DNA of 64,000 nucleotides from Myxococcales bacterium (GCA_021806645.1 JAJZQX010000012.1:1-64000); one strand, 5' to 3'; shown: positions 36,429 through 40,579, numbered from the stretch's first letter. A program made the numbers and translations. Notes: generated by a model from the sequence alone, not told the origin.

Positions 36429-38408
36429 GTGACGCTCCTCCACGCCGCCGGCCTGCGCCTCACCTTCGGCAGCCGCACCGTCTTCGACGGCCTCACCATG
36501 ACCATCGAGGAGGGGGAGCGGGTGGGGCTGGTGGGCGTCAACGGCTCTGGCAAGTCGTCGCTGATGAAGCTGCTGGCCCGGGCCATGGTGGCCGATCGCG
36601 GCGAGCTCCAGCTCAAGCGCGGCGCCACCGTCACCTACCTGCCGCAGGAGCCGGAGTTCGGGCCGGACGCCACCGTCGCCTCCGAGCTGGAGGTGGCGCG
36701 GGCGCCGCTCAAGGCGGCCATCGAGGCCCACGCGGCGCTGGCCGAGCGGCTGGGCGGGGCAAACCAGGAGCCGCTCCACGAGAAGCTGCTGGCCGAGCTG
36801 TCGGCGCTCTCGGAGCAGATCGAGCACCTTGGTGGGTGGGACACGGCGCACGAGGCGCGGCGGCTGCTCGATCGGCTCGGCGTGAAGGAGTGGGACCAGC
36901 CGGTGGCCGACCTCTCCGGCGGCACGCGCAAGCGGGTGGCGATCGCCCGCGCCCTCCTCTCCAGGCCCGACCTGCTGCTGCTCGACGAGCCGACCAACCA
37001 CCTCGACGCCGACACGGTGGACTGGCTGGAGGACGAGCTGGACCAGCACGCCGGCGCGCTCCTGCTGGTGACGCACGACCGCTACTTCCTCGACGACCTG
37101 GTGGACCGGATCGTCGAGATCGTGCCGGGCGGCGGGGTCAAGTCGTTCCCCGGCAACTACGAGACCTACCTCGAGCAGAAGCTGGAGGCCGAGGAGCAGG
37201 CCGGCCTGGCCGGGCACAAGCGCGATCGCTGGATCGCCCAGGAGGTGGCCTGGCTGCGGCGCGGGCCGGAGGCGCGCCGCACCAAGTCGAAGGCGCGCAT
37301 CGACCGGGCCCACAAGCTGATGGCCGAGACCGGTCACGTCCGGCCCAAGGTGGCCGAGTTCCAGGTGGCGCCGCCGCCGCGGCTGTCGGCCGTGGTGATC
37401 GAGGCCGAGGGGCTGGTGAAGCGCTACGGGGCGCGGACCATCCTCGACGGCATCGACTTCCGGCTGCAGGCGGGCGAGCGGGTGGGGCTGGTGGGGCCGA
37501 ACGGCGTCGGCAAGACCACCTTCCTGCGGGTGGTGCTGGGCGAGGAGCCGCCCGACGGCGGCCAGGTGGTGACCGGCAAGCGGACGCGGGTCGCCTACTA
37601 CGACCAGCAGCGGACGGCGCTCGACGGCGAGCAGACCGTCTACGAGTCGGTCGGCGGCGGCGCGCCGGGCTGGCGCGGCGAGGACTTCATCGACGTCTCG
37701 GGTCGGAAGGTGGCGCTGCGCGACTACCTCTCCGACCTGCTCTTCCCGCCCACCACGCAGCAGATGAAGGTGAAGGCGCTCTCCGGCGGCGAGCGGAACC
37801 GGTTGCTGCTGGCGCGGCTCTTCATCGAGGGCGCCAACGTGCTGGTGCTCGACGAGCCGACCAACGACCTGGATCTGGTGACGCTCAACGTGCTGGAGCG
37901 GCTGCTGCTCGACTTCGACGGCAGCGTGCTGCTGGTGACCCACGACCGGTACTTCCTCGACAAGGTGGCCACCTCGATCCTGGCCTTCGAGGGGAACGGC
38001 AAGGCGGTGAGGTACCCCGGCAACTACGCCATGTACCGCCGGCTCAAGGAGCAGGGGGAGCGGGCGGCGGTGGCGGCGGCGGCCGGACAGGCCCGCGCAG
38101 CGAGGGGCGTCGCCACGGCGGCGGCAGCGGCGGCGGCGAGCGGGAAGGCGGCCGAGGCCGCCAGGGCCCGCAAGGCGGCGCGGCTCGGCTTCAAGGAGCA
38201 GCGCGAGCTGGAGGGGATGGAGGCCGCCATCCTGGCGGCCGAGCAGCGCAAGAGCGCGGCCGAGGCGGCCCTGGCCGATCCGGCCACCTACCAGCAGGGC
38301 GGCGCGGCGGTGGCGGCGCTGCGGGCCGAGCTCGATGCGGCCGGGGCCGAGGCGGAGCGGCTCTTCGCGAGGTGGCAGGAGCTGGAGGCGCTTAGAGGTG
38401 GAACCTAG
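36429..38408 (+). CDS. uup: ABC-F ATPase, Uup type
   Basis: 659 aa, GTG 36429 with GGAGG six bases upstream. Two ATPase domains: first Walker A GVNGSGKSS (~32-40) and signature LSGGTRKRVAIARA; second Walker A GPNGVGKTT and signature LSGGERNRLLLARL. Each has a DEPTN Walker B. The linker (~245-290) is basic. A C-terminal Ala-rich coiled-coil (~550-655) is the Uup DNA-binding tail. ABC-F proteins act on the ribosome; Uup also affects transposon excision in E. coli. The final ~90 bp are duplicated at 40463-40552. Confidence 0.92.
   Translation: MTLLHAAGLRLTFGSRTVFDGLTMTIEEGERVGLVGVNGSGKSSLMKLLARAMVADRGELQLKRGATVTYLPQEPEFGPDATVASELEVARAPLKAAIEAHAALAERLGGANQEPLHEKLLAELSALSEQIEHLGGWDTAHEARRLLDRLGVKEWDQPVADLSGGTRKRVAIARALLSRPDLLLLDEPTNHLDADTVDWLEDELDQHAGALLLVTHDRYFLDDLVDRIVEIVPGGGVKSFPGNYETYLEQKLEAEEQAGLAGHKRDRWIAQEVAWLRRGPEARRTKSKARIDRAHKLMAETGHVRPKVAEFQVAPPPRLSAVVIEAEGLVKRYGARTILDGIDFRLQAGERVGLVGPNGVGKTTFLRVVLGEEPPDGGQVVTGKRTRVAYYDQQRTALDGEQTVYESVGGGAPGWRGEDFIDVSGRKVALRDYLSDLLFPPTTQQMKVKALSGGERNRLLLARLFIEGANVLVLDEPTNDLDLVTLNVLERLLLDFDGSVLLVTHDRYFLDKVATSILAFEGNGKAVRYPGNYAMYRRLKEQGERAAVAAAAGQARAARGVATAAAAAAASGKAAEAARARKAARLGFKEQRELEGMEAAILAAEQRKSAAEAALADPATYQQGGAAVAALRAELDAAGAEAERLFARWQELEALRGGT
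38304..38393 (+). repeat. uup 3' end in the intact gene (left repeat)
   Basis: These 90 bp match 40463-40552 at 87 positions, in direct orientation, 2159 bp apart. The repeat ends five codons before the uup stop. Similarity continues weakly a few codons to the left. Confidence 0.9.
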
Positions 38409-38794
38409 CTCGAGCCGGCCAGCGAGAAGCGATAGGGGCTGCTCACGCCGCGGCTGGAAACTTCGGCCAGGATCCTCAACACATCGCTCTCGGGGATGTG
38501 CCGCTCTTCCAGGACTCGTCGTACGTCTTCGCGGTCCACGGGAGGCAGCCGAACCGAGAAGAAGGGCCACAAGTCCTCCCTCCGGTACTCCTCTTGGAAG
38601 TCCGGGAACGCGGAGATCGGTCTTGCACCAGAGGACTTGATGAATTTCGGGTCATAGATACCGTCGCGCAGCAGGTGGTGCATCCCGCGGTTTTTCTGGA
38701 GGAGCGACGGCGCCTCCGGGTGGAGGAGCTTCCGGAGCGCCAGGTCCTCGACGTCGGACTCCGCGACGGCCAGCGAGACGGGGCCCGGGGTCAC
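38405..38794 (-). CDS. Hypothetical protein, partner of AAA-ATPase
   Basis: 129 aa. Its ATG overlaps the stop of the ATPase gene upstream, so it is translationally coupled. Charged and soluble, with PFFSVRLPPVDREDVRRVLE and a helical C-terminus. No motif recognised. It ends 4 bases inside the uup stop region on the opposite strand, right at the cassette edge. Its coupling suggests it works with the ATPase. Confidence 0.65.
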   Translation of the reverse strand: MTPGPVSLAVAESDVEDLALRKLLHPEAPSLLQKNRGMHHLLRDGIYDPKFIKSSGARPISAFPDFQEEYRREDLWPFFSVRLPPVDREDVRRVLEERHIPESDVLRILAEVSSRGVSSPYRFSLAGSS

Positions 38795-40300: not shown

Positions 40301-40333
40301 GCAAGCCACAAGAGCATAACAGCCTGCAATTAC

Positions 40334-40579
40334 ATGGCTGTGGGCCATTCCGGAACATTCCGGACTCGCCGCCAGGCCCGGTCACGTTGCCTGCTCAAGC
40401 ACGTGCTCAGCGTCGCGGACACGCAACTCATCGGAGAGGAGCTTGGGGAGAAGGGCGTCGCCGCGGCGGTGGCGGCGCTGCGGGCCGAGCTCGAGGTGGC
40501 CGGGGCCGAGGCGGAGCGGCTCTTCGCGAGGTGGCAGGAGCTGGAGGCGGTTCGCGCGGGATCGAGCACGGACCGGTAG
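40334..40579 (+). pseudogene. Orphan uup 3'-end fragment (right repeat 40463-40552)
   Basis: An open frame whose last 40 codons repeat the Uup coiled-coil tail (AALRAELEVAGAEAERLF, then ARWQELEAV) and end at TAG 40579, after RAGSSTDR rather than RGGT. The part before 40460 is unrelated. No start with a ribosome site is evident. I read it as the displaced original 3' end of uup, now separated from the gene by the cassette. Confidence 0.8.

Follow-up and report, generated by a model that had tools for sequence, protein, structure and literature searches.

A small mobile defence cassette that encodes no transposase probably entered the uup locus of an uncultured bacterium of the Anaeromyxobacter family by ‘insertion with long target duplication’, and other defence and toxin–antitoxin modules of the same genome probably arrived by the same route. 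Directly observed are direct repeats that are unrelated from site to site and a defence cargo between them; the arrangement recurs at several loci and in other phyla, and two of the three cassettes in the window, the 64,000-nucleotide stretch of DNA analysed here, have insert-free counterparts in other genomes. The window belongs to a metagenome-assembled genome (G000) of 4.14 Mb in 33 contigs; genome G002 is a genus-mate.

The cassette between two uup tails

The uup gene, whose protein shares 87% identity with its G002 orthologue, is followed by a second copy of its own 3′ end (Table 1). The direct repeat measures 94 bp at 95.7% identity (90/94), with a spacing of 2,159 bp, and the shorter 90-bp repeat described in an earlier sequence-only reading was recovered with exactly the count given there (87/90, between 38304-38393 and 40463-40552). 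A 27-base core of the repeat, searched with up to three mismatches, was found at the two uup-tail copies only (0.00 expected by chance). The edge of the repeat is not sharp, similarity fading to 92% over 103 bp. Both genes between the copies lie antisense to uup and overlap by 4 bp, and the two tails end differently, the intact one in ...EALRGGT and the orphan in ...EAVRAGSSTDR, each before its stop codon. The earlier description stands, the fading edge and the two further cassettes of the window going beyond it, and its interpretation of the locus as an inserted cassette with a uup tail on either side is supported.

Table 1. Coordinates of the features of the three repeat-flanked cassettes, counted from the first nucleotide of the window.
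Feature	Position	Strand	Evidence or remark
Orphan fkpA tail, second cassette	25281..25361	-	81 bp, 93.8% identity to 27072-27151
211-aa ORF in fkpA cassette, no family	25486..26121	-	
PDC-S54, C-terminal half, fkpA cassette	26132..26740	-	PDLC05036, 301 bits, profile 226-407 of 410
Intact fkpA tail (gene 27083-27406)	27072..27151	-	FKBP_C, 127 bits
uup (ABC-F ATPase), invaded gene	36429..38408	+	NF050005, 517 bits; PF00005
Repeat copy 1, intact uup 3′ end	38300..38393	+	90/94 identical to copy 2
Short uup tail past the repeat (RGGT and stop)	38394..38408	+	Holds uup's single AGA Arg codon
129-aa ORF, truncated PDC-M03B-like (HipA-N-like) remnant	38405..38794	-	PDC-M03B, 34 bits; Couple_hipA, 21 bits
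PDC-S27, STAND/AAA+ ATPase with C-terminal PD-(D/E)XK-like domain, 492 aa	38791..40269	-	PDLC04985, 699 bits
Palindrome AAGGTAAT-CTCC-ATTACCTT, putative operator of PDC-S27	40281..40300	.	
Filler between the end of homology to other PDC-S27 cassettes and copy 2	40334..40458	.	Homology with the G002 and G008 copies stops at 40326-40333
Repeat copy 2, orphan uup tail, own stop at 40579	40459..40552	+	90/94 identical to copy 1
Intact aldo/keto-reductase tail, third cassette (gene 57240-58025)	57897..58021	+	125 bp, 87% identity to 58713-58837; PF00248
HicA-like 85-aa toxin gene	58122..58379	+	Position and size only; no profile match
HicB antitoxin	58376..58714	+	PF05534, 53.5 bits
Orphan aldo/keto-reductase tail	58713..58837	+	125-bp repeat with the intact tail

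The further proposal, that the original uup terminus was displaced by one brought in with the cassette, is plausible and falls short of proof. Its basis is the codon usage of the two tails: uup has 58 Arg codons, the single AGA among them being located in the intact tail, and the orphan tail (GTT CGC GCG GGA...) is written in normal codons. The short tail of the intact gene possibly derives from the cassette junction. Uup C-termini of relatives (RAGG, RGG, RVGGPG) are too variable to test displacement, and none matches either copy. Both copies of the repeat read TTC at a position where 28/28 relatives have TAC or TAT, indicating that the duplication arose in the lineage of G000. At three of the four informative differences between the copies relatives side with the intact one, and the orphan tail therefore seems to decay faster. 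No empty uup site was seen among the relatives, which have one tail and in all of which downstream synteny has been lost.

The larger of the two inserted genes matches the PDC-S27 profile over nearly its full length (positions 3-483 of 484 in a PADLOC profile search). PDC-S27 has already been catalogued, through its genomic embedding, as a candidate defence gene in which an ATPase is fused to a PD-(D/E)XK domain (PADLOC; PMC12988326); a literature search found no experimental report of its anti-phage activity. The cassette is probably defence-related, as had been suggested, its ATPase being this catalogued candidate. The gene is not part of the chromosomal core, being present in 11/99 related genomes at differing loci. 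Plasmids yielded 120 matching records, nearly all below 60% identity, and phages only distant matches (~23-25% identity, four records).

An AlphaFold2 model based on 30 homologues (pLDDT 88) resembles the archaeal STAND-type ATPases 2qen (Z 19.8) and 2fna (Z 19.1). Taken alone, the C-terminal domain of the model gives weak to moderate structure matches to the PD-(D/E)XK nucleases 2vld, EndoMS and Can2/Card1; a search of the PDB by sequence with both cassette proteins gave no match. Conserved residues include Walker A (G31-T38), D108-E109, E399-I-D401 and C417-K418. Judged by its model, PDC-S27 may act as a sensor, with a STAND-type ATPase that activates a PD-(D/E)XK nuclease. Fold matches of the model also include TnsC and MuB, and TnsA is a PD-(D/E)XK nuclease. 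That PDC-S27 is a self-mobilising enzyme rather than primarily a defence protein, with an AAA+ target selector and a nuclease that would nick the target ~100 nt apart, insert its own gene and operator, and move the other defence cassettes of G000 in trans, nevertheless seems improbable.

The unit common to relatives extends over 38788-40333, with one end exactly at the ATPase stop codon (38788-38790) and the other ~60 bp upstream of the start. This boundary bears on the 129-aa frame, which, according to the sequence-only reading, could form an unrecognised defence pair with the ATPase. A new two-gene system would fit the 4-bp overlap of the frames but is highly unlikely: the ATPase is a known candidate, homology of the mobile unit does not extend past its stop codon, and the small gene, a 5′-truncated PDC-M03B-like fragment, has a homologue beside PDC-S27 at 0/53 other loci. 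A conserved pair is refuted by this truncation and absence. The stop codon of the 129-aa frame overlaps that of uup and its start overlaps the ATPase stop; residues 47-127 alone match the full gene in G008:C66, and in this relative full-length PDC-M03B adjoins the kinase PDC-M03A. The frame thus resembles part of the PDC-M03A/B system (a HipA-like kinase and a HipA-N protein) and differs from it in missing both the M03B N-terminus and the kinase, so that the uup cassette holds no intact PDC-M03.

The inverted repeat that the cassette was said to carry in its own promoter region was found (Table 1). The pattern AGRTAA-n2..9-TTAYCT occurs no more than 120 bp upstream of 27/46 PDC-S27 genes across phyla, compared with 1/3,739 control windows; it was picked after the sequences had been viewed, and the excess is too large for such a choice to explain. 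The palindrome is present in a cyanobacterial plasmid copy (S. elongatus) too and is sometimes found in tandem (L256, L258, L260, L261 and L283, among loci L245-L283). A scan for promoter and terminator consensus sequences gave nothing above shuffles. As a single gene makes up the minimal cassette, the palindrome is probably bound by PDC-S27 itself, by way of a winged-helix-like segment (residues 256-321 of the model), and through it PDC-S27 may repress its own promoter until triggered. A palindromic repeat around CCTACCGGTAGG is present in several copies in a defence-rich stretch of another genome (L056; G016:C161), near PDC-S27, a PDC-S01-like ATPase and toxin–antitoxin genes.

Repeat-flanked cassettes at other sites

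PDC-S27 occupies unrelated sites in other genomes. In G002 it lies between two copies of the 3′ half of tRNA-Lys and the sequence that follows (112 bp, 96%), and in G008 and G013 between hmgA tails, where a second, neighbouring cassette carries PD-Lambda-2 A (132 bits) and B (464 bits). A decayed 110-bp PDC-S27 end remains near the same tRNA-Lys in G000 (L059:8371-9746, G000:C7), indicating that the tRNA site was used earlier and that the intact insertion at uup is a separate one; a RelE/HigB-like ORF (9154-9663) adjoins this remnant. Divergence of PDC-S27 is not in step with that of uup (window–G002, 83.8% vs 89.9%; window–G008, 81.4% vs 77.5%), and since its distances do not follow those of uup the gene appears to move horizontally.

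Of the 44 PDC-S27 loci with enough flank, drawn from several phyla, 10 had direct repeats (≥50 bp) no further than 500 bp from each end and the other 34 had no such repeats, compared with 6/934 control intervals (0.6%; Fisher p 8e-11, or 1e-8 with the closest relatives discounted). Repeats of different loci showed no similarity to one another, the tight ones varying in length between 58 and hundreds of bp and lacking any common core, and neither terminal inverted repeats above shuffles nor a shared end motif was found at 11 insertions. Repeats unrelated between loci, together with ends that lack inverted repeats, indicate that the repeats are duplicated target and not element ends. A DNA transposon was rejected on the lack of inverted repeats, on the lack of a transposase ORF in the cassette and on the duplication, which at ~94 bp is not short.

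Where the target in G000 and its relatives is a recognisable gene, it is always the 3′ end that is duplicated. Selection alone could explain this bias, because a duplicated 5′ end would cut the gene from its promoter. Use of gene 3′ ends would also be expected of tyrosine recombinases acting in trans, with the repeats as attL and attR; the tRNA-Lys repeat has its start in the region of the anticodon loop, where att sites classically lie, and the genome has seven integrase-type matches. However, none of the seven is on the contig of the window, none is in the window cassettes, and the same PDC-S27 core is found at uup, tRNA-Lys and hmgA with repeats that have no sequence in common. An integrase origin is therefore disfavoured, and we regard it as very unlikely.

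Comparison of the window with itself gave three long direct repeats of such scale and identity, at uup, at fkpA and at an aldo/keto-reductase (AKR) gene, the additional cassettes spanning 25281-27151 and 57897-58837. Insert-free sites were found for both of the latter: pepD-fkpA in G001, and adjacent reductase and epimerase genes in G001 and G002. The HicAB module of the AKR cassette is present in G016 and G018 too. The orphan AKR tail differs from the intact one in its stop and downstream sequence, and it does not directly precede the native downstream gene, so this locus is not accounted for by one clean insertion. Two further genes, DUF2007-like and Rossmann-type (58838-60163), are inserted there ahead of the native epimerase gene, and ATGCGCGTGCTGGTGGCG occurs at both outer edges of the region, near 58025-58042 and 60164-60181. 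Dispersed intergenic repeats with many copies in the genome and its relatives lie at 24900-25280 (~180 bp) and 26672-26812 (~140 bp).

A survey covering 1.53 of the 4.14 Mb of G000 (37%) detected 19 direct pairs at 0.5-4 kb spacing, against 0 inverted. Paralogous pairs were set aside (tandem ExbD, UvrA, ABC LivF/LivG domains, an 819-bp tandem and RHS repeats), after which seven clear repeat-flanked units remained, 7/7 with defence or toxin–antitoxin genes when a ParE-like match below the cut-off and HicA, assigned by position, are counted. Among them are an aminotransferase tail around HigB-like and HTH genes, a membrane-gene tail around PDC-S05 (487 bits), a 59-bp repeat around the ParE-like pair, and an array (L165; G000:C5:134-9099) in which four Polysacc_synt_2 (CapD-like) tails separate IetAS, an HNH nuclease gene, PDC-S02/DUF1016 and AbiEi. 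The PDC-S02/DUF1016 gene of this array has an exact 405-bp duplicate. One further pair (C2 98749/100990) falls inside an antitoxin-like coding sequence and is ambiguous.

The tightly repeat-flanked loci all come from metagenome bins. Five isolate genomes tested had no flanking repeats of at least 30 bp; on complete isolate plasmids, repeats were not tight around PDC-S27 in S. elongatus and were not found at its flanks in Cupriavidus. Restriction to bins is what an assembly artefact might produce, but this explanation, like that of chance repeats in a GC-rich genome, is extremely unlikely: mis-assembly would not create the 4-19% difference seen between copies of a repeat, control intervals gave the low frequency stated above, inverted pairs were not found, and two other genomes of the family, at 400 kb each, had no comparable repeat pairs.

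Origin of the duplicated tails

In the mechanism we favour, the mobile core would be the PDC-S27 gene with ~60 bp of its own promoter, including the conserved palindrome. Its insertion at the 3′ end of uup would have duplicated ~95 bp of uup on the far side, so that uup would stay functional and an orphan tail would remain. Target duplication could result at insertion from breaks ~100 nt apart that are then filled in. The repeats would subsequently allow the cassette to be excised as a circle and, through ordinary recombination, to enter homologous gene tails again; arrays with repeats between the cassettes would be built in the same way. Ku-dependent NHEJ was rejected as the joining route, as four genomes of the genus, two of them incomplete bins, contained no Ku.

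The divergence between repeat copies (4-13%) implies either that the events are old or that one copy was imported. Import underlies the main rival explanation, in which ‘gene tail plus defence gene’ came from a related strain and recombined with the resident tail, by a single crossover of a circle or with one homologous and one illegitimate end, and breakage-and-fill played no part. Pooled over all sites, differences between copies (34/24/62 by codon position) lean to the third position (62/120), so some copies elsewhere may be imported functional tails. Import would also fit the divergence itself, the sharing of one repeat core within arrays (hmgA in G008, the CapD-like tail in C5) and the different stop and downstream sequence of the AKR orphan, and excision as a circle followed by reinsertion has been proposed for transposed genes of Arabidopsis, whose flanking direct repeats are mostly genic target sequence (PMC2869330). 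However, differences between copies in G000 are spread over codon positions (17/11/18), unlike those of a constrained gene (40/37/111 for uup between species; p 0.007), the base change common to both uup copies is found in 0/28 relatives, and import leaves the first colonisation of new, unrelated sites unexplained. We therefore consider it unlikely that the second tails were imported, and favour insertion with long target duplication followed by exchange through recombination between tails.

Relation to known systems

These cassettes bear on how small transposase-free defence genes move between genomes and gather in islands. The duplicated gene tail, a simple and searchable scar, suggests a transposase-free entry of defence genes into genomes. 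If the route is general, duplicated tails would give a means of counting such insertions and a place to look for new defence genes, and the insertion mechanism would be open to laboratory test. The palindrome shared by PDC-S27 genes across phyla suggests that the gene carries its regulation along as it moves.

The ATPase gene of the uup cassette agrees with PDC-S27 as catalogued (PADLOC; PMC12988326) in being a single gene, an ATPase fused to PD-(D/E)XK, that matches over the full profile; the papers searched contained no report of its flanking repeats or conserved upstream palindrome. A search of the open-access literature for PDC, PD-Lambda, toxin–antitoxin or other defence cassettes flanked by duplicated gene tails gave only papers on restriction–modification. 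The transposed genes of Arabidopsis are alike in their direct repeats of mostly genic target, and differ in being plant genes and not bacterial defence cassettes.

The closest known system is ‘insertion with long target duplication’, described for restriction–modification genes, mainly in H. pylori, by Nobusato, Uchiyama, Ohashi and Kobayashi in 2000, and compared here as it is presented in papers that cite it (PMC1643837, PMC3874152, PMC3031569). By those accounts, the likeness lies in a small selfish or defence unit that has no transposase and is flanked by a long, variable (~100 bp) direct target duplication; the target repeats here differ by site (94 bp at uup, 81 at fkpA, 125 at AKR and 112 at tRNA-Lys). 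The hosts here are Myxococcota and, for PDC-S27, members of several phyla. Judged by sequence, the scar known for restriction genes in Helicobacter appears to extend to many defence types and, for PDC-S27, across several bacterial phyla. The cargo differs from restriction–modification as those papers describe it, consisting here of PDC-S27, PDC-S54, PDC-S05, PDC-S02, PD-Lambda-2, IetAS, AbiEi and toxin–antitoxin pairs, and for this reason the cassettes of G000 are a variant that works alike, rather than an identical member, of insertion with long target duplication.
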